From Hymenobacter aerophilus DSM 13606 (GTDB taxonomy: Bacteria; Bacteroidota; Bacteroidia; Cytophagales; Hymenobacteraceae), in contig NZ_KB907810.1 of NCBI RefSeq assembly GCF_000382225.1, forward strand, positions 62,001 through 126,000: a stretch of DNA of 64,000 nt, given 5' to 3'. The position numbers and the translations under genes were made by a program. The stretch's first letter is position 1, and the number at the start of each line of letters is the position of its first letter. Positions 3,960-19,804 of this stretch are shown here, piece after piece. The notes beneath the pieces were generated by a model. That model had not been told where the DNA came from and made no database searches. It worked only from the letters and a program-made list of their open reading frames with translations.

Positions 3960-4006
3960 CCGCGGCGGCCGGCGTAAAATATAATTGCCGCAAAGCAGAA
4001 CTGCGC

Positions 4007-4036
4007 TTGCGTAAGTGCCTGAGGTTGCTAGTTTTG
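4007..4036 (+). promoter_or_regulatory. Bacteroidota-type promoter for the gene at 4079
   Basis: TTG at 4007-4009 and TAGTTTTG at 4029-4036 fit the Bacteroidota -33 (TTG) and -7 (TAnnTTTG) elements with a 19-bp spacer, and lie 43 bp before the ATG at 4079. Confidence 0.6.
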
Positions 4037-4078
4037 AAGCGCAATCATTGTTTCACTCTTTCCTCCCATTTACTTGTT

Positions 4079-4498
4079 ATGGCGTACGATGTGAACACCT
4101 TAAAAGACCGCGCGCAGTGCCTGACGGCCAAAGCCAGTCTGGAAGCTGAGCTGGATGGCTACCAGAACCGCGACCAGAACCTGGCCTACCAGGACCGCCG
4201 CGAAGGCCGCACCGGGGCCTCCAATGCCTCGCGCCTGGCCACCGCCACCGACCGCGTGAACTATCTGAACGACCAGCTGGCCCGCCCCGACCTCTCGGAC
4301 GCCGACCGCAACCGCTATACCGACCAGCTGCTGACGGCCAATTACCAAAAGGCCCGCCTGCAAAACCGCACCGCCGACAGCGGCGGGGCCGCCGCCTTCC
4401 TGGCCGATGTCGACTCCGACCAGATTGATGCCCAGGTGGCCCTGCTCAGCGGGGCCATCACGGCCGTGCAGGCCCGCCACGACGCGCTGCCCGCCTGA
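4079..4498 (+). CDS. Small helical protein of unknown function
   Basis: 139 residues from ATG 4079, chosen because a good promoter and a leader lie just before it; the frame stays open upstream through the preceding gene but that stretch is not this gene. The sequence is hydrophilic and helical (LTAKASLEAELDGYQNRDQN, LNDQLARPDLSDADRNRY), suggesting a cytosolic coiled-coil protein. No signal peptide or membrane segment. Residues 21-55 are rich in Arg, Asp, Gln and Asn. A strong hairpin terminator follows 20 bp after the stop. I recognise no family. Confidence 0.75.
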   Translation: MAYDVNTLKDRAQCLTAKASLEAELDGYQNRDQNLAYQDRREGRTGASNASRLATATDRVNYLNDQLARPDLSDADRNRYTDQLLTANYQKARLQNRTADSGGAAAFLADVDSDQIDAQVALLSGAITAVQARHDALPA

Positions 4499-4519
4499 CA
4501 AAATTAGCGTCGCCGGTAG

Positions 4520-4562
4520 GCATAGAAAAGCCTCTGACAAATTGCCAGAGGCTTTTCTATGC
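4520..4562. terminator. Bidirectional hairpin terminator
   Basis: Perfect 17-bp arms gcatagaaaagcctctg (4520-4536) and cagaggcttttctatgc (4546-4562) with a 9-base loop. It sits between convergent genes (stops at 4498 and 4595) and carries A and T runs suiting both directions. Confidence 0.9.
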
Positions 4563-4594
4563 CTATTCTACTTGTCTTATTTCGTCTTACTCGT

Positions 4595-5719
4595 CTACTT
4601 CAGCAGCTGGGCCAGGGTGGTTTGCAGGGCCGCTCCGCGCAGGTTCACGGCCACAATTTTGCCGCTGGGGTCGATGAGGAAGTTCTGGGGGATGGCCTGG
4701 ATGTGGTAGCGGGTGGCCGCCTCACCCTTCCAGCCGTTCAGGCCCGACACTTGGGTCCAGGGCAGCTGGTCGGTGGCAATGGCTTTCAGCCACTTTTCGC
4801 GGGCATTGGACTCATCGAGCGATACGCCCAGCACCGTGAAGTTGCGGCCCTTGAAAGCGTTGTAGGCCTTTACCACGTTGGGGTTTTCCTCGCGGCAGGG
4901 GCCGCACCAGCTGGCCCAGAAATCGACCAGCACAAACTGGCCCCGCAGGCTGCTGAGGGCCACCGGCTTGCCCTCGGGCGTGGGCAGCGTGAAATCGGGC
5001 GCCACAGCCCCCACCGACACGGTTTTGAGGATGGCCAGCTCGGCGGCGTAGCGCTGGCCGGCGGGGCTGTTTTGCACGGCGGGCGCCAACAGCGCAAACA
5101 GCGGGGCCACCTCGGCGTAGTTGGGCACGGCCCCACCCATCGACTTCACCGCATCAAGGCTCACCATGGAACCCGGATGGGTGCGGATGAAGGTGGCGTA
5201 CTGCTGATTTACGATTTTGTCCAGGGCTTCCTCCTGCGCATCGCTTTTCGCCTGGAACTCGGGTGTGCGCTGCTCCTTGGGTGTGGCCCGGTAGGTGGCG
5301 TACAGGGCCTTGAGCTGGTCCTGGCCGGGCTTTAGCAGGGTCTGGAGCTGCTGGAAGTCGGTGTTGAGCGGCGTGCCCGCCAAAGCGGCATTGCCCAGCG
5401 AGTCGGGGCTGGTAAGACTGATAACACCCGGTTCGAGGTAGAAGGTAATCCGGTCGGCCTGACCCGTGCGCAGGCGGCGGCGGTTGCCGTTTTGTAGCAG
5501 CTGCACCAGCACCTGTTTAGGCTCGGTCACGGTGCCTTTCAGCACGAAGGCGCCATTCTTTACTTCCGCCGAGTCGAGGCGGCCCGTGCCAAACAGATAT
5601 ACTTTCGACCTGGGGGCCACTTTGCCCAGCTGCCCTTTAATGGTGAACGGAGCGGGCGTCTGGGCCTGGGCCACTACGGGGGCGGCGGCCAGCAGCAGGC
5701 CGAGGAGCGTTGTTTTCAT
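4595..5719 (-). CDS. TlpA-like thiol-disulfide oxidoreductase with DUF4369 N-domain
   Basis: 374 residues. Signal peptide MKTTLLGLLLAAAPVVAQAQ. Residues ~25-130 look like the DUF4369 beta domain (FTIKGQLGKVAPRSKVYLF). A helical middle follows, then a thioredoxin fold from ~235 with active site WASWCGPCREE. Such periplasmic proteins reduce or exchange disulfides during protein folding or cytochrome maturation in Bacteroidota. Convergent with the small helical gene, sharing terminator 4520-4562. Upstream lies the SerB-SerA gene on the same strand, with a ~105-bp gap, so the two may be separate units. Assignment to the TlpA/ResA superfamily is firm; physiological partner unknown. Confidence 0.9.
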   Translation of the reverse strand: MKTTLLGLLLAAAPVVAQAQTPAPFTIKGQLGKVAPRSKVYLFGTGRLDSAEVKNGAFVLKGTVTEPKQVLVQLLQNGNRRRLRTGQADRITFYLEPGVISLTSPDSLGNAALAGTPLNTDFQQLQTLLKPGQDQLKALYATYRATPKEQRTPEFQAKSDAQEEALDKIVNQQYATFIRTHPGSMVSLDAVKSMGGAVPNYAEVAPLFALLAPAVQNSPAGQRYAAELAILKTVSVGAVAPDFTLPTPEGKPVALSSLRGQFVLVDFWASWCGPCREENPNVVKAYNAFKGRNFTVLGVSLDESNAREKWLKAIATDQLPWTQVSGLNGWKGEAATRYHIQAIPQNFLIDPSGKIVAVNLRGAALQTTLAQLLK

Positions 5720-5825
5720 AAAACGAAATGGATGGAAAAGGAAGATAAACCGCGCATAATATCCGCAGAATTTCGCAGAAAATGAGGCGGTTGCAGCGCG
5801 AAATTTTTATTCCGAACCCCGGCCG

Positions 5826-7727
5826 TTAGTACAGCACCCGAAACTTGATGGTGTGCTCCACCTGGCGCAGCTCCTCAATCAGGGCCGGCTCGTACTGCTT
5901 GTCGACGTCGGTAATCACATAGCCGATATGCTCGTTGGTTTTCAGGTACTGGCCCAGGATGTTGACCGCGTGGGACGCCAGCACCTGGTTGATGTGGGCC
6001 AGCACGCCGGGCACGTTGTGGTGGATGTGCATGAGCCGGTGGGCGGCCTGCTCGGGCAGCTGAATATTGGGGAAATTGACGCTCTGCTGGGTGTTGCCGG
6101 TGTTCACGTACTGCATCAGCCGCTCGGGCACAAACTCGGCGATGTTGCGCTGGGCCTCGGCCGTAGAGCCGCCGATGTGGGGCGTGAGCAGCACGTTGGG
6201 CAGGTCGCGCAGCTCGCTCGCAAACGGCTCGTCGTTGGTTTTGGGCTCGTACGGAAACACATCGACGGCGGCCCCGCCCAGGTGGCCCGAGCGCAGGGCG
6301 GCGGCCAGCGCCGCCACGTTTACCACGGGGCCGCGGGCGTTGTTGAGGAATAGGGCGCCCGGCTTCATTTGGGCGAATTCCTCGGGCCCGAACAGGTCCG
6401 TGTTTTCGGGGCGGCCGTCCACGTGCAGCGTCACGATGTCGGCCTGCGCCAGCAGCTCGGGCAGGGTGCGGCAGCGGGTGGCGTTGCCCAGCTGCAGCTT
6501 CTCGGCAATATCGAAGTAGAGTACCTGCAACCCGATGGCCTCGGCCAGCACCGACAGCTGCGAGCCGATGTTGCCGTAGCCCACGATGCCCAGCTTCTTG
6601 CCGCGCACCTCAAACGCCCCGCCCGCCGACTTATCCCACTTGCCGGCGTGCATCTGGGCGTTCTTTTCGGGCACCCGGCGCGCCAGCAGCAGGATTTCGC
6701 CCAGGGCCAGCTCCACCACCGAACGGGTGTTGCTGAAGGGGGCGTTGAACACGGCTACGCCCTTTTTCAGGCACTCAGTCAGGTCAATCTGGTTGGTGCC
6801 GATGCAGAACGCGCCGATGCCGATGAGGCGGTTGGCGGCCGCCAGCACCCGCGCCGTTACCTGGGTTTTGCTGCGGATGCCGAGCAAACTCACGCCCTCG
6901 ATGCGCGCTACCAGCTCGTCCTCGTCGAGGCCGCCGGGCACCAGCTCCACCTGGTAGCCTTCCTGGCGCAGCAGCTCGGCGGCGCGCGGGTCGGGGTTTT
7001 CGAGCAGCAGCACTTTAATGCGGTTTTTGGGGTAGCTCAAACTCATGGGTAGCTTGTTCTGGTAGAGAAATTCATCGAAGGAGGGCAGCACTTCATCGGC
7101 CTGGGCTACCACGGCGGGGCGGGCCACGTTTTCGGTGAAGGCGTAGAAGCGGTCGGCCAAGCCGGCTTCGCGCATCTGAAAGTCGGTGTAGCCGTCGCCG
7201 AGCACGTACACCGGCCCCGTGAGGTGCAGGCGCCGCAGCTGCTCGATTTTGCCCCCGTCGCGGCTCAGCACGTTTTCGGGGTCGAAGCCGGTAATGCGGC
7301 CGCTTTCATCAAACGCGAACGTGTTGGCCAGCACGAACTCGGGCGCAATGCCGAACTCGCCCACCACCGGCTCGATAAACTCCCGAAACCCGCTGCTCAC
7401 GATGTACACCCGGCCCGGAAACTGCTCGAAGAAGCCCCGGTTGCGCCGGATGCTCTCCGACACCTTGCCCCGCAGCCGCGCCACCAGCTGCCCGATATGC
7501 TCGCGCCGGGCCGGCAGCAGCGCCAGCCGCTGCCTCAACGATTCCGAAAAGCTCAGCTCGCCGCTCATGCCCCGGTCGGTCAGCGCCCGGATCTGCCCCA
7601 CGATTTTTTCGCGCTCCGGGCTGTTTTCGAGGGCAATATCGGCCAGCTCATCCAGCCCTTCTACCTGCGTAAAAGTGCTGTCGAAGTCGATGATAAGGTA
7701 GGGCAGGGGTTGGGGTTCGTCGGGCAT
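5826..7727 (-). CDS. Phosphoserine phosphatase / phosphoglycerate dehydrogenase fusion
   Basis: Bifunctional enzyme covering the first (3-phosphoglycerate to 3-phosphohydroxypyruvate, NAD) and last (phosphoserine to serine) steps of serine synthesis. From ATG 7727 it has 633 residues; a longer in-frame start at 7778 adds 17 Pro-rich residues. The N-terminal ~220 residues are a HAD phosphatase: DFDSTFTQVEGLDELA (motif I), VSSGF (motif II), LGDGYTD (motif III). From ~235 a D-isomer dehydrogenase follows: GKKLGIVGYGNIGSQL Rossmann loop, NNARGPVVN (Arg), TPHIGGST (His). A C-terminal ACT domain (~570 on) suggests serine feedback. The middle enzyme SerC is not in the window. Confidence 0.93.
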   Translation of the reverse strand: MPDEPQPLPYLIIDFDSTFTQVEGLDELADIALENSPEREKIVGQIRALTDRGMSGELSFSESLRQRLALLPARREHIGQLVARLRGKVSESIRRNRGFFEQFPGRVYIVSSGFREFIEPVVGEFGIAPEFVLANTFAFDESGRITGFDPENVLSRDGGKIEQLRRLHLTGPVYVLGDGYTDFQMREAGLADRFYAFTENVARPAVVAQADEVLPSFDEFLYQNKLPMSLSYPKNRIKVLLLENPDPRAAELLRQEGYQVELVPGGLDEDELVARIEGVSLLGIRSKTQVTARVLAAANRLIGIGAFCIGTNQIDLTECLKKGVAVFNAPFSNTRSVVELALGEILLLARRVPEKNAQMHAGKWDKSAGGAFEVRGKKLGIVGYGNIGSQLSVLAEAIGLQVLYFDIAEKLQLGNATRCRTLPELLAQADIVTLHVDGRPENTDLFGPEEFAQMKPGALFLNNARGPVVNVAALAAALRSGHLGGAAVDVFPYEPKTNDEPFASELRDLPNVLLTPHIGGSTAEAQRNIAEFVPERLMQYVNTGNTQQSVNFPNIQLPEQAAHRLMHIHHNVPGVLAHINQVLASHAVNILGQYLKTNEHIGYVITDVDKQYEPALIEELRQVEHTIKFRVLY

Positions 7728-7914
7728 ATGGGAGGGCAAGGTAGGGCGCGGCGGAACAATGGGACGGGCGGGGGACATCTGGCAGCCTGATTGGAGATAG
7801 AAAGTAGCCGCTGTCAGTTGCCATGCAACCTAATACTGTACTTACGGCTCCTGCTTCCGGAGGCAGCAGAAGGCTGCACGCGCTTCCCCATACTGCCAAT
7901 CCTGCCGGCTACTT

Positions 7915-8625
7915 ATGAAACAACTGCTACTGCTCGCGCTTGGACTCGGCCTGAGTGCCGCCACTGCCCAAGCCCAAAGCACGGAGGTTACGCTGCACGC
8001 CACCTCGGGCTACTTCAGCTACCGGGGCGCTTCGGCCGCGGGCACCTCGTTCATTATTGATTCCGACACGGGCGGCCCTGGCTACACCAACAATCCCTAC
8101 GGCAACCGCTTCACCCTCTCGTACGGCGGGGCCGGGCAAGTGCAGCGCGTTACGGCCTACCGGCTGGTGCTGGGGGCGCAGGCCGGCTACGAGTGGCTGC
8201 GCAGCCGCGTCGATATCAACGGTTTTTATCCGGGCAGGGGCAACCTGGTGGCGGCTACGGGGCACACGGTGCTCACCAGCCGTTTCATCAATACCCACCT
8301 GTTCGCGGGCTGGCGCTTCCGTTTGGGTGCCGTTAATCTCGATGCTACCCTGGGTCCCGAGCTGGGTTTTCTGCTGGGAGTACAGGAAAAGGGCGAGGCG
8401 TCGGGGGGCGGTATCAGCGTTGCGGCCGAGCGCGACCGTACACCGGGAGAGGTCTCCAAAGACCCGCGGGGTCGGGCCAACCTGACGGCCTATTACCAGC
8501 GGCTCGGCCTGTCGGTAGGCTACTCGCGGGGCGCGCACAACTACAAGAACAACTACGTGGGTGGTCCGGCAAGTGAGGCCTATGGCCGGATGCTGCGCGT
8601 GGGGCTGGCTTACCGCATCAATTAG
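7915..8625 (+). CDS. Outer-membrane beta-barrel-like protein
   Basis: 236 residues with signal peptide MKQLLLLALGLGLSAATAQA. The mature part is rich in Gly, Tyr, Ser and Thr with alternating patterns (LVLGAQAGYEWLRSRVDING, YYQRLGLSVGYSRG) and ends in LRVGLAYRIN, typical of small porin-like or PorT-like barrels in Bacteroidota. No catalytic motif. It stands alone between a minus-strand gene on each side. The upstream 130 bp between it and the divergent serine gene hold no clear promoter that I can name. Function unknown; an integral outer-membrane protein is inferred from composition. Confidence 0.7.
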   Translation: MKQLLLLALGLGLSAATAQAQSTEVTLHATSGYFSYRGASAAGTSFIIDSDTGGPGYTNNPYGNRFTLSYGGAGQVQRVTAYRLVLGAQAGYEWLRSRVDINGFYPGRGNLVAATGHTVLTSRFINTHLFAGWRFRLGAVNLDATLGPELGFLLGVQEKGEASGGGISVAAERDRTPGEVSKDPRGRANLTAYYQRLGLSVGYSRGAHNYKNNYVGGPASEAYGRMLRVGLAYRIN

Positions 8626-8684
8626 CGCAGGCTGATGCAGCCGCCTGCCAGTCGCTTTTCTTTCTGCGGCCAGCACTTCCACCA

Positions 8685-9395
8685 TCAGCCCACCCGCCGG
8701 GCCGTACTGGCGGGCAGCCAGGTGTCGTTCTGGCACACCGGGCAGCGGGCCGGAGCCGCGACGGCTAGCTCGCGCACGTGGCCGCAGCGGGCACAGGCGT
8801 GGGGGCCGGGGGCGGTGGCGGCGGGTTGGGCCTCGGCGAGGCGCTCGGGCCAGATGGGCAGACCCGGGCGCACTTCGTCATCGGGGAAGAAATACACGCT
8901 GGTTTCGCCGTCCGATTCGATGTAGGCCCGGCGCACCTGGCCCAGGTGCTCCACCTGCTGCTGGCGCAGCTCGCCGAACAGCTCTTTCAGGGTGATATTC
9001 TGCTTCTCGAAGTTTGGCCGATTGATGACGCCTTCTTCCACCAGCAGTATCGGCTCGCCTTCCAGCCAGTCGGAAAATCCGGGGAACCGCTCGGTGAGGA
9101 CATTGAAAATGGTGTAGAGGCCCGTTACCATGCCGAACACAACCAGCGTGGGCAGCAGGGGCGTATCGTCGTAGAGCATGGCGTCGCCGGCGGCCGAGCC
9201 CAGGCCCAGGATGATGCTAAGCTCGAAAATGGAGAGCTGCCGCACCCCGCGCCGCCCCATCACCCGCAGCGCCGCCAGAATCAGCAGGTACATTACTCCG
9301 CAGCGGGCGGCTATTTCCAGCAGAAACGGCCATGTGGTGTCATCGGCCCACAAAATGCGGTGCCAGTCGAAGGGGATTACGGGCGGTTGATCCAT
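8685..9395 (-). CDS. DUF421 membrane protein with C-terminal zinc ribbon
   Basis: 236 residues. Three N-terminal membrane helices (~25-45, 60-80, 85-105) are followed by the conserved DUF421/YetF-type cytosolic domain: VMGRRGVRQLSIFELSIIL, GDAMLYDDTPLL, GEPILLVEEGVINRPNFEKQ, and ELFGELRQQQVEHLGQVRRA. After the usual end, ~50 more residues carry two CxxC pairs (CARCGH and CPVCQN), a zinc ribbon or rubredoxin-like knuckle. The role of the DUF421 family is unclear. The zinc ribbon is unusual in my recollection of the family. Single gene, with the SWIM gene divergent ~240 bp away. Confidence 0.87.
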   Translation of the reverse strand: MDQPPVIPFDWHRILWADDTTWPFLLEIAARCGVMYLLILAALRVMGRRGVRQLSIFELSIILGLGSAAGDAMLYDDTPLLPTLVVFGMVTGLYTIFNVLTERFPGFSDWLEGEPILLVEEGVINRPNFEKQNITLKELFGELRQQQVEHLGQVRRAYIESDGETSVYFFPDDEVRPGLPIWPERLAEAQPAATAPGPHACARCGHVRELAVAAPARCPVCQNDTWLPASTARRVG

Positions 9396-9634
9396 GCGGT
9401 ACGGGGTGGGGAGAGGGCCGGAATAAGGCCGAAAAGTAGCGTATTACGGCAGAAATCCGGAGCTTGGTTCGCCTCCTGGTGTGGCATGGATGCTAAATCG
9501 ACTTCAATTCCTCACCAAAGAACTACCTAATGCCAATTAAATTAGTAGAGCTAAATAATTTGGCTTAAGTTCGCATCGCAATTCTCCTATACTGCTACGC
9601 TGCAACCAACGTATTTCACTTTCTTCCTCCCATT

Positions 9635-10981
9635 ATGGCTGATTTTGCTTACGCCTACGCTCAACCCTCAGCACTGACCCACACCGTGAAAGGCAACGTG
9701 CTTGCCCTGGCGGCCTACGCCGAAGACCCGCCGACGGGGGGCGCTGCCTGTTTCTTCAGCGGTGGGCTGGCCAACTCCTGGCTGGCCGCCCGCGGACTAA
9801 CTACGTTAGCCAAAGTGGTAGCCTCGCGCTTCGTGCCGCAGAGCGCCGCCCTGCGCGACCCCATCGTAACGGCCGGGGCGGGGCTGCTGCGCTTCGAGGC
9901 GTTTTCATCGTGCAACGGCGTGTACGCCCGCCTCGATTTGGGGCCTGAGGCGCTGGAGGGCGAGTTTCTGGCCAGCGGCACCACCAACGTCGATTTCAAC
10001 GAGCCCATGGTGAATGCCCTGGCGCGGGTGTCGCGCACCGAGCCGGTGCGGCTGCAAGTGGGCGAGCAGCAAGTGGTGCTGGAGCGCGCCGCCGGCACTG
10101 TAACCGAGCGCAAAGTGAGCCTGCCCGAGCGTTGGATAAAGGGCCTGACCGCCGTGCAGGGCTACCTGGCCGGCATGGAGGAGCGCCTGACGCTAACCAA
10201 AGTGCAGGCCACGCAGATGCTGCAGAGCCTGCCCGCGGGCACCCTGCGCGGCGAATATTACCTGCTGCTGCGCGGCCCGCGCCCCAGCTTCGTGCCGGTA
10301 GCCAGCGCGGGGGCCGTGCGGGTGGGGGGCGCGCACCGCCTGCGCCTGCTCGACGGCCTGCTGCCGCTCTGCGAAAACCTGCGAGTATACGCCACGCCCG
10401 ACGGGCAGGCCTCAGCTTTCGTGCTGGTGCTGGGCGGCGGGCACGAGTTTGTGCTGGCCCTGAGCGCCGAGGCCAACCGGGGCTTTTCGGGCGAGGGCAA
10501 CCAGCTCGATACGCTGCTCGACGAACTGCCTACCGAGTGGATAACCGGGGCCAACAACCTGTTCCGGGGCAACGAAACCTTCAACCCCACGCTGTTTGCG
10601 CTGGAAAACGACCTGGCCCCCGAGGTGGTCGACCGCCTGTGCGCCAGCCTTTCGGCCATGGGTTTGCTGGGCTTCGATTTGGCCAGCAACCACTACTTCT
10701 ACCGCCGGCTGCCCTTCAAGCTGGAGCGCATTCTCAAGCTCAACCCCCGCCTCAAAAATGCCCGCGCCCTGCTCGAAGCCGCCGACGATGTGCAGTTGGT
10801 AGGAGTGGGGAATGGCGGCCGTACTGAAGTGCGCGTGCGCGGTACCGACGTGTGGCATACCGTGCTGGTAGGCGGCGCCGAGGCCCCGCGCTGCACCTGC
10901 CAGTGGTTTACCGGCCACCAGGGCCAGCGCGGGCCGTGCAAGCACATTCTGGCCGCCCAGCTGCGGTTTGGAGCAGCATAA
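9635..10981 (+). CDS. SWIM zinc-finger protein
   Basis: 448 residues, cytosolic. The only sharp motif is at the very C-terminus: C420-x-C422 ... C435-x-H437 in CTCQWFTGHQGQRGPCKH, a SWIM zinc finger (CxCxnCxH), a fold that binds DNA or protein. The N-terminal ~120 residues include a beta-rich segment (FFSGGLANSWLAARGLTTLA). The middle is mixed helix/strand without a known enzyme motif. It heads a same-strand set with two giant paralogues (11124 and 14309). Upstream 9535-9600 is AT-rich. The leader tttcactttcttcctcccatt almost repeats the leader of the gene at 4079. Likely the nucleic-acid or partner recognition element of this locus (inference). Confidence 0.85.
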   Translation: MADFAYAYAQPSALTHTVKGNVLALAAYAEDPPTGGAACFFSGGLANSWLAARGLTTLAKVVASRFVPQSAALRDPIVTAGAGLLRFEAFSSCNGVYARLDLGPEALEGEFLASGTTNVDFNEPMVNALARVSRTEPVRLQVGEQQVVLERAAGTVTERKVSLPERWIKGLTAVQGYLAGMEERLTLTKVQATQMLQSLPAGTLRGEYYLLLRGPRPSFVPVASAGAVRVGGAHRLRLLDGLLPLCENLRVYATPDGQASAFVLVLGGGHEFVLALSAEANRGFSGEGNQLDTLLDELPTEWITGANNLFRGNETFNPTLFALENDLAPEVVDRLCASLSAMGLLGFDLASNHYFYRRLPFKLERILKLNPRLKNARALLEAADDVQLVGVGNGGRTEVRVRGTDVWHTVLVGGAEAPRCTCQWFTGHQGQRGPCKHILAAQLRFGAA

Positions 10982-11123
10982 TAGTTAGCGGGGAGTAGCT
11001 GGCGCTGAGCGGTCAGGCCAAACAGTGCCGGCCCTGTGGGTGATGCGAAACTACACCGGCCTAAAAAATCAATAGCTGAACCCTATGTACTCAATACGAA
11101 CTACTCAATCCTAGACTAGACCT

Positions 11124-14100
11124 ATGCCCACTACCGTCGAAGAATTTGAGCACATCATCCGCCACCAGAGTATTACAGAGCTGCTTCCGTTTCTGCTGGC
11201 GCTGCCAAAACGGGACGTGGTGCCGGTGCGGGCAAAGCTCAAAGCGCTGAGAAAAGAGCTGGAAAGCATCGTGCAGCTGTCGGAAAATAGCTGGGGAAGC
11301 CGAAGTACCCGTGAGCAATACGAGGCGTTATTTCTGACGGGCTTCGCGGTTTATTCGCGCACCGACGCGCTCCGCAGCCTGACTAATGGCTGGGCTCTGG
11401 CCGGAAATAATTATCAAACTATAAAAGGACTGCATGAAGCCTGGCTGGCGCTTATTAGCGCAATTCGTCCCGATTGGCTGGGCGATTGGCTGCGGCATAT
11501 TCACCGCAATGGCCGGGACTGGGCAGTCGGTTATGCGTTGCTGCGAACCCTGGAGGAGGAGCAGTTGATTCCGTATGTGCCCGAAATAGTGGTTAAGGCA
11601 GTGGTACAGGCCCTGAGCGATTGGGGAGGGGAGTTGAGCCAGGGTGTTTCCGTCCCCCTGGATGCCGCTGCTGCCATTGCAGACCGGTTTCGGGCCGACC
11701 CTCTATTGCTGCGGCGAGATTTACCGTTGCTGTTTGAATTCGACACGGCAGTTAATGCCTACAGCGCGCGAATTCAGCTTGTAATGCCTTTTGATGCAGA
11801 GGGCGCTCAGGATGCCAATGGCAGACAATTGCGCCCCTGGCAAGTATGGGAACAGAAGCACCCAATCCAGGTTGTGTCGTGGCAAAACGTCATCGTACAG
11901 CTAGCCGCCACCAACCACCTCGACCGGGCCGACCTGCTCACCCGCTGCCTGCTGGCCCTGCGCCGCGACTTCCGCCGCCCGCTGCTGACGTGGTTTAAAG
12001 ACCTGTTTCTAAAGCTGGAACCAACCACTGAGGAGCTGTTGGCCCGGCAAAACGAGCTGTTGGAACTGCCGCATGCCATGCCGCTGGTAGCCAACTTTGC
12101 CCTGACCCAGCTAACGCAGCTACTACAAGCGCCAGCCTTTTCCCCGACCGTGCTGCTACCGCTGGCCGACAGCTTCATGGCCCGGCCCGAACTCAAAACC
12201 AGTTTGCGGGCGCTAATAATGGGTCTGCTGAAATGCCTGAAGCAGGAGCCCGCGCAGGCCCCGACTATTGCCCGCCTGCTGGCCGCCGCCCTGCCGCACC
12301 CCGATGGGGCCGTGCAGGAGCGCGCCGCCAAAGGGCTGGCGGGCCTACTGAACGCTGCTCAACCATTGCTCGACCCCACCGAAACGGCAGTAGTAGTAAC
12401 GGCCATTCAGCAGGCCACCGACTTACTGGGCGGCCCGGCGCGCACCGTGCTGGTGCCCTGGCTGGAGCCGGCTGTAGTGGTCGGCGGGCCGGGTGCCGCC
12501 GCGGCATATGCGCCGACCGCTTCGTTTGTGCCCGATATTTCGGCGGCTACGGCCATTGCCCCGGTGGCCGATTGGCACGAGCTACTCTTCCTGACGGGCC
12601 AAGTAGTGCAGCACCGCGACCCGGCCGTTGCCGAACGGTGGCTGGATGGCCTGCTGCGGCTGCCCGCCCAACTGCCCGCCGACTTTGCCGCGCAGCTAAA
12701 GCCCTACCTGGTACAGCGGCTGCCCGCCCTCAAAAAGGCTTCAGTTGCCGAAAGCACCACGCTGCTGGCGGGCCCCGTGAACACGAACGGGCACGAGGGG
12801 CTGGCTCAGGCCCTACTCCTAAGCTGGGCTACCGGCTTCGCTACCGCCCGCGTGGCCCGCGTGAACCTCAAGGGAGATTACGCTGCGCCCGGCCCGCTAT
12901 TGTCCGTGGAAAAACAGCGCTATCTGTGCGCTGAAACACTGTTGCGCCAAGGCCACCCGCTGCCGCTCCTGAGCACGCCCACGCACGAGCCGTACTGGGT
13001 GGCACCGAATACGCTGGTAGCCCGGCTGCTGGCTTATCAGGCCGCGGGAATCCCGCCCGCACCCGCCGACTTGGCCGTGGCGCTGGCCCGCACGGCGCAC
13101 AGCCACGCCGCCAGTTCTGCCGAGGCGCTGACCCAGCTCCCAGCCCTGGTCGATATCGGGCTCCGCGAGCTGCTGACGTGGTTTTTTGGCCCGGCCGACG
13201 CCCAACTGCCCACCCTGCCGTCTGCCGCCCCGCAACGGCCTGGGGCGAAGCTGTCGGTTGAGCTGGCCGGGGCGCTGCCGGAGCTGTGGGCCGTGGCGGC
13301 CCGCACCAAAGCGCCACTCGGCCGCTTCCCCACGCTGCCCGCTGCCCTGGGGTACGACTACCCCGGCGTGGCGCAACCGTTGCTTTCCACCTGCGTGGCC
13401 GTGCCGCACGAAAACCGGCATTCGGGCATTGGCGAGCCGACTCGGGTTTACCGCTACGTAGAGCTGGCCTGGGATAGTGGCACCACCCGGCCGGCCCCTT
13501 CGCCGCTGCTGCTTTACGCGCCACCAGTGGGCCGCAGCCAGCGCGGGTCGTGGGAGGAAAATATAGTCATGGCCGAGGACCTGCCGTTTTTCGGGAGCCT
13601 GCTGCCGCATAATCCGGCCCCCGTGCACGAGCACGCCCTGCGCAACGGCGCCTGGACCGACAAGCTGGAAACGGCCGAGCGCGACATCGTGCAGCAGGCC
13701 CTGCGCAGCCTGCTGCCAGCCGGCCCGGTCTATCTGGGGGCCAGCCTCGACTTGCTCGCCTGCGGCCTGGTGCACAATTTGGCCGAATGCCGCCGGCTAG
13801 CGCAGGAAGTGCTGCTCCGGGCCATTGCCGCCGGCCGCCTGCTGCCAGCTTCGCTGGGTGAAATCCTGGGCCGGCAGCTGGCGGCCGAATATGCCCCGGT
13901 GCCCCGCCTGTCCGATGGCCTGACGGCGCTGACCGGCATCGACCCGTTAACGGACGATGCCCTGACCCAGGTGCTGGAAGCGCTGCTGCCCGAACTGCCC
14001 GCCGCCCCGCCGCGCAGTACGCGCAAGTTACTGGAAACCTACGCTTTGGTCCAACCCCGCACGGCCCGGATGGTGCCGGCCGCGGTACGGGCCCGGCTAG

Positions 14101-14156
14101 GGGAGTGGCGGGCCGTGGCCAGCTTGAAGCCGCTGGTTAAGCAAGTTTTGACGTAG
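11124..14156 (+). CDS. Giant helical-repeat protein, paralogue 1 (DUF6493-like)
   Basis: 1010 residues, no signal or membrane segment. Almost all helical, with HEAT-like repeats such as LPHPDGAVQERAAKGLAGLL. Highly conserved with the next gene: LLALRRDFRRPLL then WFKDLFL (~290), PDISAATAIAPVADWHELLF (~470) and LPLLSTPTHEPYWVAP (~615). I believe this is the family filed as DUF6493, often found near SWIM genes, but cannot verify that. Its first ~250 residues are encoded by DNA visibly lower in GC than the rest and diverge most from the paralogue. It follows the SWIM gene by 142 bp. No catalytic motif seen; a scaffold role is inferred. Confidence 0.8.
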   Translation: MPTTVEEFEHIIRHQSITELLPFLLALPKRDVVPVRAKLKALRKELESIVQLSENSWGSRSTREQYEALFLTGFAVYSRTDALRSLTNGWALAGNNYQTIKGLHEAWLALISAIRPDWLGDWLRHIHRNGRDWAVGYALLRTLEEEQLIPYVPEIVVKAVVQALSDWGGELSQGVSVPLDAAAAIADRFRADPLLLRRDLPLLFEFDTAVNAYSARIQLVMPFDAEGAQDANGRQLRPWQVWEQKHPIQVVSWQNVIVQLAATNHLDRADLLTRCLLALRRDFRRPLLTWFKDLFLKLEPTTEELLARQNELLELPHAMPLVANFALTQLTQLLQAPAFSPTVLLPLADSFMARPELKTSLRALIMGLLKCLKQEPAQAPTIARLLAAALPHPDGAVQERAAKGLAGLLNAAQPLLDPTETAVVVTAIQQATDLLGGPARTVLVPWLEPAVVVGGPGAAAAYAPTASFVPDISAATAIAPVADWHELLFLTGQVVQHRDPAVAERWLDGLLRLPAQLPADFAAQLKPYLVQRLPALKKASVAESTTLLAGPVNTNGHEGLAQALLLSWATGFATARVARVNLKGDYAAPGPLLSVEKQRYLCAETLLRQGHPLPLLSTPTHEPYWVAPNTLVARLLAYQAAGIPPAPADLAVALARTAHSHAASSAEALTQLPALVDIGLRELLTWFFGPADAQLPTLPSAAPQRPGAKLSVELAGALPELWAVAARTKAPLGRFPTLPAALGYDYPGVAQPLLSTCVAVPHENRHSGIGEPTRVYRYVELAWDSGTTRPAPSPLLLYAPPVGRSQRGSWEENIVMAEDLPFFGSLLPHNPAPVHEHALRNGAWTDKLETAERDIVQQALRSLLPAGPVYLGASLDLLACGLVHNLAECRRLAQEVLLRAIAAGRLLPASLGEILGRQLAAEYAPVPRLSDGLTALTGIDPLTDDALTQVLEALLPELPAAPPRSTRKLLETYALVQPRTARMVPAAVRARLGEWRAVASLKPLVKQVLT

Positions 14157-14308
14157 CGACGCGAAACTTCGCGGCTCCCGCTGCCCAATATTACACAACG
14201 ACTGATAACCAAGGCGTTTCCCGTGCAAAACTACTATTCACTGATTGAGTCGCGAAGTATGGCACCGCTATAACCGCCCGGCGAAAGTTTTTTTATTATA
14301 ATCCCTTG

Positions 14309-17300
14309 ATGAATACCGCTATGGCCAACAGTACTGAAAACTTTGAGCAGCTTGTGCGTCACCGGCCCCTGCCGGAGCTACTTGACTTTTTGGTGCAACT
14401 CGATAAGCAAGACTTGGTGGCGGTACGGCTCAAAACCAAGGCGCTTTGCAAGGAAATGAACGACTGGCGCAACGATACACCAGAAAGCAGGGCCCTTATG
14501 CAGCGTGAAGCCCATCTGCTGCTGGCTGGCTTGGCTACCTACACCAAGCAGGAAGCGCTAGGCCGTAGCTTCGAGTTGCCTGCGCATCTTGGCCTAGACA
14601 ACGACAAGGACAACCGGGGCTACAAAGAGTATTTTATGCGGGTGTTGCGCCACAGTCGCCCCTCTTGGCTTAAGGACTGGCTGGTGCGTCAGGCGCGAGC
14701 TGAATTTGGTTACATTCTGCCCTACAGCCAGTTGCGCGAGATGGAAACGGCCGGGCTGCTTGGCCACGACCCCTGGCTGTTTGCCCAAAGCCTGGCCCAG
14801 CGCCCCAGCTACTACAGCCGCACCAACAAGGAGCGGGGCCAGGGCCTGGCCACCTTTATGCTGGCCCAACTGCAAGCCGATACCACGCTGCTGGCGCGCG
14901 ACTTACCCCTGCTGTTCGACTACGACACGAATGTCGACTCGGCATCGGCTTACCTGGGCGCTAAGCTGAAATCTGTCAGTTGGCTTACGCTGTTGCCCGC
15001 GCTAACCGAAAGCGGCCACCTCGACCGGGCTACACTGCTCACCAGTAGTCTGCTGGCGCTGCGCCGCGACTTCCGTCGCCCGCTATTATCGTGGTTCAAA
15101 GACCTGTTTCTAGCCCTGGAGCCTACGCCCGATGAGCGCTTAGCCCGGCAGGCCGAGCTACGCGAACTGCTGGCCCAGCCGCTGACGCAGGTGGTGAACT
15201 TCGCCCTCGACCAACTCAAGCTCATCTGGGGAGAACCTGGTTTTGATGTAGACGCACTGCTGCCCTACGCCGACGAGTTGCTTACTCGGTCCAACCTGAA
15301 AACCGGCCTAAAAACCCTATTCAGCGGCTTCGACAAGCTGCTGAAAGCCCGCCCCGCGCTGGCTCCGGCCCTGACCCCGCGCCTCGCCACCGCCCTGGCC
15401 CACCCCGATGCCGGCGTGCAGGAGCGGGCCGCTAAGAGTCTGGCCGGCTTGCTGGGGGCCAAAAAGCCGTTGCTTGACGAGGAGGCGCTGGCCAACACTA
15501 TAGCTGACGTGCAGGGACTAAGTGAGCTGCTGAGCACCCCGGCCCGCACGTTGCTGGCACCCTGGCTGGTCGCCGCACCAGCCGCACTTGTGCCCTTAGA
15601 AGCCTACAGGCCGCACACTGGCTACGTGCCCGATATTTCGGCCGCCACGGCCATTGCCCCAGTGGCCGACTGGCACGAGCTGCTGTTTCTGACCGGCCAG
15701 GCCTTACAACCCGATCAGCCTGCCGAGCAGGAGCGCTGGCTTGATGGCCTGTTGCGGTTGCGCGCTCAGTACCCCACCGACTATGCTGCGCAGTTGCGGC
15801 CTTACTTACTGCAAGTGTTTTCCGGGTATTTGCGGGACAAAACCGAAGCCGAAACCACCGATATTCTGCGGAAAATGGACTACGGTCGGGCGGGGCAGAG
15901 AGATTTTCTGCGGGCTTTGCTGGCTGGCTGGTATGGTGGCTTTGCCCAACCGCAAGTAGCGCGGACGAGCCTAGCTGCCCACTACCAGCTCTACCCCGAC
16001 CCGCTGCTGAGCCTGGCCCGGCAACGGCTGGTGGCCACCGAAGCCCGGCTGGCTCCCGGCGCAGTGCCACTACCGCTGCTCAGCACGCCCACGCACCAGC
16101 CCTTTTGGGTGGCGCCCATGGCACTGCTGGATAAGCTGCTGGCCTACGAAGCCGCCGGCCAGGAGCCAGATGCCACCGACTCCGTACTGGCCCTGAGTCG
16201 GCTGGCCTGGAACGCCCCGGCCGATGCGGCCACCGCCCGGCAACGGTTGGCCGGACTGGCAAATGCTGACCTGCGCCAACTCCTGAGCTGGCTCCTGGCT
16301 CCTGCCGAAGAAACCCCGGCACTACCAGTACTTAGGCCTGGCGATAAGTCGTTGTTTGAGAAGGCGGCGAGCCGGTTTGGTCAGTGGGTGTCGGGCGAGC
16401 ATCCGGTTGCCCCCACGCTGGCTGAAGTCGTGCCCTGGCTGTGGGCCGTGGCGGCGCGCACCCGCTACCCGCAGGCGGCCTTGCCCGAGCTAACGGCGCT
16501 GGCCAACTACCCCGGCTTAGCCGAGCCCTGGCAGCCTAGTTGGCGCATCAACACCGAAACCCATACCGTTAAGCAGTCCTACAACAAGGCGGAACCCGAG
16601 TATGTGTACCAGACGCACGAACTCGTAGTGCCCACTGCTGAAGCGGCCGCGCCGCCCTCGCCGCTGCTACTGTACTCGCTGCACGCTCAGCTTCCCCAGA
16701 AGAAGCACACGTACATCTGGTCGTTGTTTGAGGACCTGAGCTTTCTGCATTCGCTGCTGCCCAACAATCCGGCCTCGTTGCAATGGCACCTGCTCCGCTC
16801 GGCCTTCACTACCAGTGAGGGGTATAGTGAGGAGCAGTCCGGGCTCAGCAAGCAGCTGCACGCCTTGCTGAACGATGGCCCGGCCTACGAGGAGCCGGCC
16901 ACGGTTCTGCTGGCGGTGGGCCTGCTATACGGCAAGTCAACCGTACGGGCCCTGGCCTGGGAAGTGCTCTTGGCCGCCGTAGGTACCGGGCGGCTGGTGC
17001 CCGTAGCGCTGGGCAATGCCCTGGGCCGGCTGCTGGCCGGCAGCTACGCCCCGGTACTGCGCCTGGCCGAAGCGCTGCCTGCGGCCCGTGGCATCTCGCT
17101 CGCCACCGACGACGCCTTGCGCCAACTACTGGAGGCCCTATTGCCCGAGCTGCCCGCCGCGCCACTACGCAACACCGCCAAGCTGCTGGCTGCCTATACC
17201 GACCTGCGGGCCGGTGCCGGCCTGCCGTTGCCGGCTGCGGTGCAGGAACGGCTGCAAGAGTGGCAGGCCGTGGGTAGCCTCAAAAAAGCAGCTACGGTCT

Positions 17301-17314
17301 TGCTGGATATCTAG
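14309..17314 (+). CDS. Giant helical-repeat protein, paralogue 2 (DUF6493-like)
   Basis: 1001 residues from ATG 14309; ATG 14321 is equally possible since similarity to paralogue 1 begins at STENFEQLVRH. Collinear with paralogue 1 along its whole length: LLALRRDFRRPLLSWFKDLF, HPDAGVQERAAKSLAGLL, PDISAATAIAPVADWHELLF, LPLLSTPTHQPFWVAP, and a C-terminal ALLPELPAAPLRNTAKLLAAY block. It carries an extra ~20-residue segment around 680-710 (DKSLFEKAASRFGQWVSGEH). Tandem duplication of one ancestor is evident. Separated by 152 bp, part of it AT-rich (ttttttattataatc). It ends before a hairpin shared with the convergent reductase gene. Confidence 0.8.
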   Translation: MNTAMANSTENFEQLVRHRPLPELLDFLVQLDKQDLVAVRLKTKALCKEMNDWRNDTPESRALMQREAHLLLAGLATYTKQEALGRSFELPAHLGLDNDKDNRGYKEYFMRVLRHSRPSWLKDWLVRQARAEFGYILPYSQLREMETAGLLGHDPWLFAQSLAQRPSYYSRTNKERGQGLATFMLAQLQADTTLLARDLPLLFDYDTNVDSASAYLGAKLKSVSWLTLLPALTESGHLDRATLLTSSLLALRRDFRRPLLSWFKDLFLALEPTPDERLARQAELRELLAQPLTQVVNFALDQLKLIWGEPGFDVDALLPYADELLTRSNLKTGLKTLFSGFDKLLKARPALAPALTPRLATALAHPDAGVQERAAKSLAGLLGAKKPLLDEEALANTIADVQGLSELLSTPARTLLAPWLVAAPAALVPLEAYRPHTGYVPDISAATAIAPVADWHELLFLTGQALQPDQPAEQERWLDGLLRLRAQYPTDYAAQLRPYLLQVFSGYLRDKTEAETTDILRKMDYGRAGQRDFLRALLAGWYGGFAQPQVARTSLAAHYQLYPDPLLSLARQRLVATEARLAPGAVPLPLLSTPTHQPFWVAPMALLDKLLAYEAAGQEPDATDSVLALSRLAWNAPADAATARQRLAGLANADLRQLLSWLLAPAEETPALPVLRPGDKSLFEKAASRFGQWVSGEHPVAPTLAEVVPWLWAVAARTRYPQAALPELTALANYPGLAEPWQPSWRINTETHTVKQSYNKAEPEYVYQTHELVVPTAEAAAPPSPLLLYSLHAQLPQKKHTYIWSLFEDLSFLHSLLPNNPASLQWHLLRSAFTTSEGYSEEQSGLSKQLHALLNDGPAYEEPATVLLAVGLLYGKSTVRALAWEVLLAAVGTGRLVPVALGNALGRLLAGSYAPVLRLAEALPAARGISLATDDALRQLLEALLPELPAAPLRNTAKLLAAYTDLRAGAGLPLPAAVQERLQEWQAVGSLKKAATVLLDI

Positions 17315-17337
17315 CGTAAGTCTTTAGTAGACTTGCG

Positions 17338-17421
17338 GTTGTAAAGATGCGGCTCATCGCGTCTTCTCGTTGCCCAATAACCGTTCAACGCTGAAACGCG
17401 ATGGGTCGCGTCTCTACAACC
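17338..17421. repeat. Imperfect palindrome, GTAGAGACGC family
   Basis: Left arm ggttgtaaagatgcggctca (17338 on) pairs with the right arm ending tgggtcgcgtctctacaacc (to 17421). Lies between convergent genes and could end transcription both ways. Related copies at 35749 and 37245. Confidence 0.7.
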
Positions 17422-17438
17422 ATCCAGCCTAACAGCCG

Positions 17439-18392
17439 CTATTCGCTGGCTTCGTTCAACTGGTGCATGTCGGCTTCGGTCAGCTCCAGTTGCATGGCTT
17501 TCAGCAGTTCCTCGACCTGCGGAACGCTGGTAGCCGAGGCAATGGGGGCGGTGAGGCCGGGGCGGGCCATAATCCAGGCCAGGGCCACCTGAGCGGGCGA
17601 AGTGCCGGCGTGGCGGGCCACCACGGCATCAAGGGCCGCCAGAATTTGGTAGCCCCGCTCGTTGAGGTATTTCTGGCCCACGGTGCTGCCGCGGATGCTT
17701 TTGGCCAGGTCTTTCTCCGAGCGGTATTTGCCCGTCAGGAAACCCGAGGCCAGCCCGAAGTAGGGGATAATGCCCAAGCCGTACTCCTGGCAAAGCGGCA
17801 GCAACTCGTGCTCCAGGCCCGCCCGGCGGTAGAGGTTGTACTCGGGCTGGAAAGTTTCGTAGCGCGGCAGCCCCTGAGTTTCGCTGGCTGCCAGCGCCGC
17901 CCGCAGCCGCCCGGCCGAGAAGTTGCTGGCCCCAATAGCGCGCACCTTGCCCTCCTGGATAAGCTCGGCGTACGCCTCCAGCGGCTCGGTTACGGTGCGT
18001 TCCTCATCATCCTGGTGCGACTGGTAGAGGTCGAGGTAATCGGTTTTGAGCCGGCTGAGCGACTCTTCCACGGCCGTTTTGATGTAGGCCTTGCCCAGGC
18101 CCTGGCGGCCGTCGCCCATCTTCATGCCCACTTTCGAGAAGATGAGCACGTCGTCGCGGCGGCCCCGGCGTTGCAGCCACTTGCCGATAACCGCTTCCGA
18201 TTCGCCACCCTGATGGCCCTCGCCCCAGGCCGAGTACACGTTGGCCGTATCGATGGCATTACCGCCGCCGGCCACGAAGGCATCGAGTACTTTAAAGGAA
18301 GTGGCCTCGTCGGTGGTCCAGCCAAATACGTTGCCGCCCAGCACGAGGGGCGCGGTGCGCAGGCCCGAGCGGCCCAGTTCGCGTTGTTGCAT
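17439..18392 (-). CDS. Aldo/keto reductase
   Basis: 317 residues, cytosolic NADPH-dependent oxidoreductase of the YajO/YvaA-like branch. TIM-barrel signatures: LGRSGLRTAPLVLGGNVFGW start, DTANVYSAWGEG (catalytic Asp and Tyr), IFSKVGMKMGDG (catalytic Lys), LDLYQSHQDDEE (catalytic His), IGASNFS, and an NADP-binding tail MARPGLTAPIASATS. Length is standard. Substrate unknown; such enzymes reduce assorted aldehydes and ketones. Followed on the same strand, upstream, by the amylase gene with a ~60-bp gap, so co-transcription amylase to reductase is possible. Confidence 0.92.
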   Translation of the reverse strand: MQQRELGRSGLRTAPLVLGGNVFGWTTDEATSFKVLDAFVAGGGNAIDTANVYSAWGEGHQGGESEAVIGKWLQRRGRRDDVLIFSKVGMKMGDGRQGLGKAYIKTAVEESLSRLKTDYLDLYQSHQDDEERTVTEPLEAYAELIQEGKVRAIGASNFSAGRLRAALAASETQGLPRYETFQPEYNLYRRAGLEHELLPLCQEYGLGIIPYFGLASGFLTGKYRSEKDLAKSIRGSTVGQKYLNERGYQILAALDAVVARHAGTSPAQVALAWIMARPGLTAPIASATSVPQVEELLKAMQLELTEADMHQLNEASE

Positions 18393-18451
18393 GGTGTAGG
18401 TGTAGTGAAGTAGGCAAGTTGATAAAAGCAGTCGGCATTGCCGGAGAACAG

Positions 18452-19804
18452 CTAAACTTTCTCCAGCACCCGCCAGCCGTGGCCGGGCACGGGCAGCTCA
18501 TCATCGGCCCGAAACATCAGTTGCTTTTCGCTAAATACGTCGCGCCAGGTACCGGCAGCGGCTTCGGGCAGGGGCAGAGCGGCCGGTTCGGGGCCGGCGT
18601 TGATGACGCACAGCACGGCGGCGCCCTGCTTTTCGCGCACGAAGCCGTAGAGGCCGGCCGGGCCGGATAGGCGCTCGAAGCTGCTGGTTGGGTCGCCGTT
18701 CAGCAGGGCCGGGTGGCGGCGCTTGAGTTGCAGCAGGCGCGTGTAGAAGTCCTCCAGCGGGAAATCCTGCCAGTCGATGGGGTCTTTGTCGAAAAAGGCC
18801 AGCCGCCTGTTGAGCCCCGCCTCCTGGCCCGAATACACCAGCGGCATGCCCGGCAGCAGCCCCGTGAGCACGGCGAAGGGTAGGGCCAGCGGGCCCAGCC
18901 GCTCGTATTCGGTGCCGTCCCAGCTGTTTACGTCGTGGTTGCTGGTGAAATTCATCAGGTACACCCGCGGCGGGTACTTGGCCCGCTCGGCGGCGCGGTA
19001 CTCATCAATGGCCACCAAATCGGCCTTACCCGCCGCAATGCTGTCGAACAGGTAGTGCAGGCGCAGGCCGAACGTCATGTCGAAGGCGCGCTCCAGCAGG
19101 TGCGTGTCGGGGTTGAACTCGTCCCAGCTCAGCCCGCCCGAGGGGTACAGCTCGTCCCACTCGGCCAGCATAAACACCGGTTTGATGGCTTCCAGCGCCG
19201 GGCGAGCCTCGTCCCAGAAATCGGTGGGTACCAGCGCGGCCACGTCGCAGCGGTAGCCGTCGATGCCGGCTTCGCGAACCCAGTAGCACAGCGCGTCCAT
19301 CATGTAGCGGCGCAGGCCGGGCTGGCCGTAATCGAGGGCCACCACGTCGTGCCAGTCGGCCACGGGCGGCACCAGGCGGCCCTGGGCGTCGTGCTGGTAC
19401 CACTCGGGATGCGCAAGCACCAACGGGTTGTCCCAGCTGGTGTGGTTGGCCACCCAGTCGAGCAGCACGCGCAACCCCAGGCGGTGCGCCTCGGCCACCA
19501 GAGCCCGCAAATCATCGAGCGTGCCAAATTCCGGATTCACGCCCAAGTAGTCGCGCACGGCGTACTGGCTGCCCAGCGTACCCTTGCGGCCCTGCTCGCC
19601 AATGGGATGTACGGGCATCAGCCAGATAATGCTGATGCCCATGGCCGCCAGCCGGGGCAGGTGGGCCATAAAGGCCCGAAACGTGCCCTCGGGCGTGTAC
19701 TGACGGATGTTGACTTCGTAGATGGTGGCGTTGGCGGCCCACTCAGGATGCCGCACCTCAAACAGGTGCGCATCAGGGTGAGAAACGGCGGTAAGGTCGG
19801 GCAT
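18452..19804 (-). CDS. Cytoplasmic alpha-amylase family enzyme (GH13)
   Basis: 450 residues from ATG 19804; the frame is open 68 codons further but that part overlaps the divergent gene at 19968 and has no similarity to the family. GH13 motifs in order: LDWVANHTSW (region I), GYRCDVAAL with nucleophile D187, MLAEWDE with acid/base E215, and FTSNHDVNSW with D291. No signal peptide, so it probably acts on glycogen or maltodextrins inside the cell. Sits near a branching enzyme (22533) and a glycosyltransferase-like gene (25189), forming a loose alpha-glucan cluster. Exact bond specificity cannot be told. Confidence 0.9.
   Translation of the reverse strand: MPDLTAVSHPDAHLFEVRHPEWAANATIYEVNIRQYTPEGTFRAFMAHLPRLAAMGISIIWLMPVHPIGEQGRKGTLGSQYAVRDYLGVNPEFGTLDDLRALVAEAHRLGLRVLLDWVANHTSWDNPLVLAHPEWYQHDAQGRLVPPVADWHDVVALDYGQPGLRRYMMDALCYWVREAGIDGYRCDVAALVPTDFWDEARPALEAIKPVFMLAEWDELYPSGGLSWDEFNPDTHLLERAFDMTFGLRLHYLFDSIAAGKADLVAIDEYRAAERAKYPPRVYLMNFTSNHDVNSWDGTEYERLGPLALPFAVLTGLLPGMPLVYSGQEAGLNRRLAFFDKDPIDWQDFPLEDFYTRLLQLKRRHPALLNGDPTSSFERLSGPAGLYGFVREKQGAAVLCVINAGPEPAALPLPEAAAGTWRDVFSEKQLMFRADDELPVPGHGWRVLEKV

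Follow-up and report, generated by a model that had tools for sequence, protein, structure and literature searches.

A SWIM and DUF6493 gene pair of Hymenobacter aerophilus related to type XIII retrons, with a predicted sliding-clamp fold

What does a SWIM zinc-finger protein do beside two very large helical proteins? This question is raised by a locus of Hymenobacter aerophilus DSM 13606 on contig NZ_KB907810.1. The window, the whole stretch of 64 kb that was analysed, holds three co-directional genes on the + strand, as judged from the open reading frame (ORF) list and Pfam. The first gene (9635..10981) encodes a SWIM-family protein of 448 residues, assigned by its ORF, Pfam SWIM, the PADLOC family SWIM_XIII (E 8.3e-59) and hhalign. 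Paralogue 1 (P1, 1010 residues, 11124..14156) and paralogue 2 (P2, 1002 residues, 14306..17314) follow on the same strand; the true start of P2 is probably an ATG at 14309 or 14321. A sequence-only reading had proposed the same arrangement of a SWIM protein and two giants, and the ORFs and the SWIM finger (residues 409-441, 10859..10957; Pfam E 1.6e-5, above the cut-off) agree with it. Both giants match DUF6493, DUF7824 and DUF7825 in this order over most of their length, with E values of 5e-40 to 3e-64 and all bit scores above the gathering score. The matches are at 11130-12200, 12546-13337 and 13500-14150 in P1 (199, 173 and 138 bits) and at 14333-15304, 15644-16498 and 16529-17302 in P2 (218, 174 and 172 bits). 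The sequence-only reading gave the giants no known activity. The functions are indeed not explained, but the three families are already catalogued in Pfam. NCBIfam gave no match for the SWIM protein, P1 or P2, and the names DUF6493, DUF7824, DUF7825 and PF20103 were not mentioned in the open-access literature searched. The window genes are the sole DUF6493 and SWIM matches in the whole genome. With moderate confidence, the locus is read here as a two-component accessory module that would associate with DNA and serve its recognition, a relative of the protein pair of type XIII retrons without a reverse transcriptase (RT).

Relation to type XIII retrons and distribution of the pair

Canonical type XIII loci were chosen for comparison on account of the SWIM_XIII match. 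In hhalign, the window's SWIM family aligned with seven retron XIII SWIM proteins over 437 columns (E 2e-36), which is full-length homology. The window protein scored 197 bits against SWIM_XIII and canonical members scored 565-783 bits, placing it in a distinct subfamily. Canonical loci comprise an RT, a WGR/HEAT protein and a SWIM protein. The RT was present in all seven, before or after the pair, as scored with a profile built from four retron XIII RTs, all four of which are among these seven loci. The same profile had no match in 85 loci of the window's subtype, counting the 78 loci of the search described below, L085, L090-L094 and the window; 82 of these loci showed both genes, and flanks extended to at most 10 kb and less at contig ends. 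RVT_1 was also absent from the window's genome. A search of positions 8000-18500 against Rfam, whose coverage of type XIII msr/msd is not established, gave no match up to E 1. The absent RT, the homologous SWIM protein and the different scaffold together mark the locus as a relative of the retron XIII module in which the RT is missing and the scaffold exchanged. It is not a retron, but its action is plausibly that of a retron's protein half. The sequence-only reading had regarded a link to conflict systems as speculative; such a link is now found in this homology. Judged by titles and the beginnings of abstracts, the open-access literature searched held neither an account of how type XIII retrons act nor a paper on the SWIM-DUF6493 pair.

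The likeness to type XIII retrons includes the large co-directional helical partner and, in about half of the window's relatives, an N-terminal WGR domain and the order of WGR protein and then SWIM protein. The partner's body differs, being DUF6493-DUF7824-DUF7825, and neither P1 nor P2 matched PADLOC WGR_XIII or HEAT-ARM_XIII up to E 10. The WGR domain was recognised in the DUF6493 protein of L085 (Pfam E 1.7e-17), and hhalign matched the WGR of DUF6493 proteins to WGR_XIII at 94% over that domain only. Locus L085 belongs to genome G285, in which both forms lie about 14 kb apart: RT_XIII, WGR_XIII and SWIM_XIII are consecutive in L084, and a WGR-DUF6493 protein precedes a SWIM protein, with no RT, in L085. 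An N-terminal WGR was present in 38 of 79 paired loci, as scored by a simple N-terminal motif that divergent WGRs may escape and in a set heavily sampled from Sphingobacterium and Hymenobacter. Two gene orders dominated, with WGR-DUF6493 before SWIM in 37 loci and SWIM before a WGR-less DUF6493 gene, the window type, in 36. A WGR-less DUF6493 gene preceded SWIM in five loci, and SWIM preceded WGR-DUF6493 in one. All 79 were co-directional, many with gaps of 0-6 bases. The gene caller used for this count missed L012, L077 and L080, where a gene was hidden by overlapping ORFs; these are paired in the count of 78. The Hymenobacter type differs further from the retron in lacking WGR, in placing SWIM first and in carrying one to at least four scaffold copies. 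In one canonical retron XIII (L086; RT 3411-5081, WGR 5138-8425, SWIM 8404-10068), McrBC-like genes, called by eye, lie directly upstream (L086:1-2687).

Linkage of the two genes was high. A search of 84,980 species genomes with the SWIM protein gave 78 loci, and a DUF6493-type gene stood beside the SWIM gene in 75. In the three loci in which no partner was seen, the SWIM gene is at a contig end (L033, L075) or the locus is 1.8 kb from one (L039). The two genes are 1.3 kb apart in L044, one gene is in two pieces in L053 and L064, and the scaffold match of the Planctomycetota locus L076 is weak (30-32 bits). The loci belong mostly to Bacteroidota, and also to Moraxella, Planctomycetota, Myxococcota, a gammaproteobacterial metagenome-assembled genome (MAG) and a MAG labelled Klebsiella; linkage of SWIM and DUF6493 spans at least five phyla. 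Seven records of a plasmid collection held the SWIM protein and six were inspected. DUF6493 was annotated next to the SWIM gene on plasmids of Diaphorobacter (two tandem copies), Asticcacaulis and Streptomyces sp. HUAS 31. On the plasmid of Streptomyces NBC_01727 the neighbour bears DUF7824, and a Nonomuraea record carries no annotation beside the SWIM gene. Among 296 genomes sampled evenly from the phylum, eight had DUF6493, seven of them with an adjoining SWIM gene, and 11 matched the SWIM_XIII profile. The RT-free pair was present in seven genomes and canonical SWIM_XIII in four, counts so low that they favour neither loss of the RT nor the building of a retron on the pair. A short protein at L089:7265-8926 joins part of DUF6493 to DUF1963, and its genome has no SWIM_XIII match.

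Within Hymenobacter, 120 genomes were compared, of which 47 contained DUF6493 and 49 contained SWIM. In 46 of the genomes with DUF6493, a SWIM match lay just upstream on the same strand, its edge 59-776 bases from that of the DUF6493 match; the remaining genome has a SWIM remnant of 53 residues. This count omits second pieces of one gene, a second match in G400 below the cut-off, and short SWIM remnants or pieces in G371, G367 (second copy), G352, G400 (C236) and G307 (second piece). High linkage at a presence of 47 in 120 marks a unit that is conserved yet patchy. The sequence-only reading had named a conserved trio as possible support, to be checked by a neighbourhood search. A multi-gene unit of SWIM and scaffold genes was confirmed, but it is a pair rather than a trio, since Hymenobacter loci carry one to at least four DUF6493 copies. 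Homologues that never co-occur with SWIM genes, named there as an argument against a joint system, were not what was found, a few lone DUF6493 copies aside. Possible states of decay were seen at G367:C1:534924-536179 and G352:C46:35219-36471, where a 53-residue SWIM remnant stands beside a DUF6493 match. At G307:C1:2131695-2133034 the SWIM gene is split into two pieces, possibly by decay or by sequencing error.

Predicted clamp fold of the SWIM protein

An AlphaFold2 model of the SWIM protein, based on an alignment of 48 homologues, had a mean predicted local distance difference test (pLDDT) score of 85.7. Profiles were built from 48 SWIM sequences (A1) and 60 scaffold sequences (A2), hand-chosen from the 78 loci and the window. 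All 50 PDB matches listed by Foldseek for the model were PCNA or beta clamps or chains of clamp complexes, with a best E of 1.7e-9. In a viral structure library, most of the named matches were PCNA or beta clamps too, and about a quarter of the 50 listed were unnamed. One domain fills such lists, so that the absence of other families from the matches listed is no evidence. Alignment by VIA to Sulfolobus PCNA (2ix2_B) covered 216 residues at 3.2 Å with 8% identity (Z 16.9; model residues 41-279). Residues 40-281 (9752..10477) are therefore predicted from the model to adopt a two-domain sliding-clamp (PCNA) fold. A probable winged helix comprises residues 300-356 (10532..10702), modelled as three helices followed by two strands. 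A TrmB winged-helix match below the cut-off (E 8e-4) was obtained at residues 399-447 of 546 in the retron XIII homologue L088, which was not aligned to the model residue by residue. The protein thus shares the predicted fold with PCNA and bacterial beta clamps and differs from them in that its clamp region is joined to this probable winged helix and the SWIM finger; no sequence similarity to them was found.

The finger residues C420, C422, C435 and H437 are invariant in the 48 homologues. Many residues outside the finger are invariant as well, for example G115, T117-M125, R282 and F284-G288. Following the inner-helix topology of PCNA, helices 48-63, 123-130, 189-197 and 233-239 were matched to those of PCNA by eye and without coordinates. 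In none of the 48 sequences do these four putative inner helices, counted with a few residues that flank them, carry a negative net charge, which is compatible with DNA inside a ring and does not show DNA binding. The ordinary DnaN of the genome is encoded on another contig, and a clamp formed by the SWIM protein would consequently be an additional one.

The scaffold paralogues

P1 and P2 are 45% identical overall. The sequence-only reading had noted near-identical blocks in the two proteins. Two such blocks are identical, PDISAATAIAPVADWHELLF at residue 470 of P1 and 442 of P2 and LLALRRDFRRPLL at residue 276 and 249, respectively, but the overall similarity had been read as too high. The corresponding DNA is identical at 53 of 60 and 34 of 39 positions, and no exact 20-mer is common to the two genes. 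The differing DNA and the missing common 20-mers indicate that the blocks are kept by protein-level selection. A recent tandem duplication, or gene conversion between P1 and P2, was rejected as their source on the same ground and by separate lineages in the tree. There, P1 grouped (support 100/100) with the copy that comes first in each of four other two-copy loci. P2 fell in the other large group, together with the second copies of those loci, single copies, both copies of the close relative Hymenobacter sp. CCM 8763 and the copies of the four-copy locus L008, a placement that indicates gain and loss of copies. The largest array seen was that of L008:11390-21338 (assigned to contig 2 of genome G394 from the spacing), with one SWIM gene followed by four DUF6493 genes in tandem, as represented by four matches.

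The helical-repeat nature of the giants, proposed from sequence, agrees with the model of P2 (pLDDT 90.5), in which the protein is predicted to be a long solenoid of helices that includes a single beta hairpin (747-774). Its PDB neighbours were condensin, karyopherin, CAND1 and beta-catenin repeats, with a best Z of 12.3, a level common for helical repeats. The scaffold profile also matched weakly (E 6e-6, with no single stretch passing) an engineered protein, which we take to be a designed repeat protein.

Divergent N-termini on a conserved core had likewise been described correctly. In 60-column windows, P1 and P2 share 15-29% identity over residues 60-220, approximately, and up to 80% later. 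The lower N-terminal GC content ascribed to P1 was found there (56.0% in the first 750 bases, 68.1% in the remainder) and is not particular to it, as P2 behaves alike (58.4% and 65.3%). In the comparison with CCM 8763, identity is 94% for the SWIM protein, 72-92% for five flank genes common to both and 56% for one more. The best scaffold match reaches 65%, with values of 25-37% in windows across approximately the first 220 residues. Mean pairwise identity among 30 Hymenobacter scaffolds was 0.37 for residues 1-230 and 0.53 for residues 231-1002, and that of the SWIM protein was 0.79 (16 sequences). In the hypervariable stretch of P2 (residues ~51-225, 14456..14980), which is also lower in GC, it was 0.31-0.36 per 25-residue block in the 30 sequences. 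Ratios of non-synonymous to synonymous substitution rates (dN/dS), obtained for 11 of 12 pairs with the twelfth saturated, were 0.02-0.09 for the SWIM protein, 0.05-0.25 for the scaffold N-terminus and 0.08-0.22 for the rest of the scaffold. The scaffold thus evolves faster, yet under constraint. The diversification of N-termini suggested by the sequence-only reading is real as divergence, but these ratios rule out positive selection on average as its cause. In the N-terminal stretch of the DUF6493 genes of L056 and L058, dS and dN are both raised (dS 0.88 against 0.37 in the rest); the joint rise suggests that this segment was exchanged by recombination.

Proposed action, rival explanations and neighbourhood

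In the proposed mechanism, the SWIM protein is probably a PCNA-like ring or part of one that would grip DNA or an RNA-DNA product, and the SWIM finger may provide another contact, with nucleic acid or with protein. The DUF6493-DUF7824-DUF7825 protein is probably an ARM/HEAT-type solenoid that binds the clamp and carries a variable recognition surface. In many relatives the scaffold also carries an N-terminal WGR domain, which contacts DNA ends in eukaryotic PARPs. Retron XIII adds the RT and, by the definition of a retron, multicopy single-stranded DNA (msDNA), and its scaffold body is WGR-HEAT/ARM instead. The module most likely serves to recognise DNA that is foreign or damaged; defence against phages or plasmids is the leading candidate and a checkpoint-like role in DNA damage the next. 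Of this picture, the gene linkage, the SWIM homology, the WGR domain shared by relatives, the missing RT and the purifying selection are demonstrated, both folds are predictions, and the ring, the contact between the partners, the binding of DNA and the defensive role are inferred. A broader proposal is put forward tentatively and with less confidence than the module itself: the clamp-winged helix-SWIM protein may be an unrecognised family of bacterial clamps, a core that type XIII retrons would share with a two-gene system lacking the RT and distributed over at least five phyla. It would load on DNA and recruit interchangeable ARM/HEAT scaffolds, either WGR-HEAT/ARM or DUF6493, whose variable N-terminal repeats would recognise the trigger. 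The whole would be an immune or DNA-surveillance system, of which the retron would be one regulated version. If the SWIM protein of type XIII retrons is a sliding clamp, a concrete mechanism follows, in which a ring on DNA or msDNA carries a helical scaffold. The RT-free version would then be the minimal two-gene form of a clamp-scaffold system, DnaN would be joined by another family of bacterial clamps, and three unexplained Pfam domains would gain a working context. The predicted clamp fold is the part most worth testing.

Several observations weigh against this reading. Profile A1 found no clamp among PDB sequences, its sole match up to E 10 being a TFIID subunit (E 0.034), and hhalign of the SWIM family with the genome's single DnaN sequence gave no match; the clamp assignment thus rests on one predicted monomer. 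WGR is absent from the window's proteins and from the whole genome. The helical bodies of DUF6493 and WGR_XIII proteins show no profile homology detectable by hhalign, and common descent of the scaffolds is therefore not established. Selection, judged by dN/dS, is purifying and not diversifying. Exceptions to the linkage are the SWIM gene of the S. cadmiisoli plasmid, which has no DUF6493 neighbour, the shorter DUF6493-DUF1963 protein without a SWIM partner in G198, the eighth DUF6493 genome of the phylum sample, and lone extra DUF6493 copies on contigs without SWIM in G307 and G385. The Pfam families of neighbouring genes (first 25 of 105) belong largely to transport and metabolism, and no conserved effector enzyme was identified. 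The pair had no match in phage records or viral contigs, by which a phage-borne element is ruled out.

The strongest rival places the pair in stand-alone surveillance of DNA damage or replication forks, with an extra PCNA-like (9-1-1-like) clamp and an ARM/HEAT adaptor acting in repair and not against phages. The predicted clamp fold, the presence of an ordinary DnaN in the same genome and the strong purifying selection on the SWIM protein suit this explanation, as do genes for a DEDDh exonuclease, an RNA ligase and a phosphoesterase in some loci of Flavobacterium and one other family. It is nevertheless rather unlikely: an accessory role in conflict better fits the patchy presence in Hymenobacter, the plasmid copies and the homology to the retron module, and genes for clamp loaders or polymerases did not stand out among the recurrent neighbours, although no search was aimed at them. 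That the genes are ordinary regulatory or housekeeping proteins, for instance a SWIM-type transcription regulator and a scaffold with no role in conflict or repair, would fit the ordinary genes nearby in the window and the absence of the DUF names from the literature searched. Homology to a retron accessory protein and the patchy distribution make it improbable. A non-functional retron leftover that has lost its RT would account for the missing RT and for the SWIM remnants and split gene in G352, G367 and G307. This is very improbable, since the ORFs are intact, both partners are under purifying selection across genera, the two genes are linked in at least five phyla and the DUF6493 body differs from that of WGR_XIII.

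Membership in, or a satellite role to, conflict systems of the MoxR-vWA type has a low probability as well. A bpMoxR/bpX system of MoxR, vWA and beta-propeller proteins adjoins the pair in three of the 78 loci, all from Flavobacterium (L048:11332-18555, L063:7173-14402 and L068:11415-18079, co-directional in L068), and one of the same type adjoins the canonical retron XIII of L084 (L084:10510-17313). Such ternary systems occur mainly in Bacteroidetes and three other groups according to Kaur et al. (2020, PMC7159879), in the main text of which SWIM, WGR and sliding clamps are not mentioned. No MoxR, bpX or vWA match was obtained by phmmer (E 1e-8) in the 64 kb of the window or in the other 75 loci, with single-sequence queries that distant members may escape. 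The sequence-only reading, which saw no MoxR or vWA partner, was thus right for the window, yet such partners adjoin three related loci. The yehI-yehL-yehM-yehP-yehQ genes of Escherichia coli offer a second likeness, in that the SWIM gene yehQ adjoins the moxR-type yehL and the vWA gene yehP and lies near a large DUF4132 protein, which presumably carries a WGR domain. YehQ resembles the SWIM family at the finger only (hhalign 12%), and neither YehM nor YehI matched the scaffold profile A2. Membership of the locus itself in either system is rejected on this evidence and on the single-sequence phmmer result for the window.

The surroundings of the pair were scanned in 33 loci of other genera and 27 Hymenobacter loci, hand-picked and with no control of random genes. 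The scans covered 119 of 121 neighbouring proteins in the other genera and 106 of 106 in Hymenobacter; the two left out are one at the contig end of L079 and one overlapping the SWIM gene of L080. Families are reported from the first 25 of 35, of 105 (Pfam) and of 34. Single strong PADLOC matches among the listed neighbours were SIR2-pAgo (E 2e-268), DpdF (4e-236), PsyrT (7e-104) and Mokosh MkoA (3e-58), and mad3 and mad8 were matched three times each. Some of these families may be matched by general helicases or ATPases, and owing to the missing control a defence island is not claimed. In the window, the nearest flank genes are ordinary, with DUF421, aldo/keto reductase and alpha-amylase in Pfam. 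Recurrent neighbours elsewhere were DEDDh exonucleases (RNase_T), a calcineurin-like phosphoesterase, a T4 Rnl2-type RNA ligase and Band_7, at L090:15409-18487 and L091:12556-14321 and also in L048, L060, L063, L085 and L092, assigned by Pfam for L090 and L085 and by cluster membership for the other loci. One RtcB and two RlaP matches were present among the 119 neighbours.

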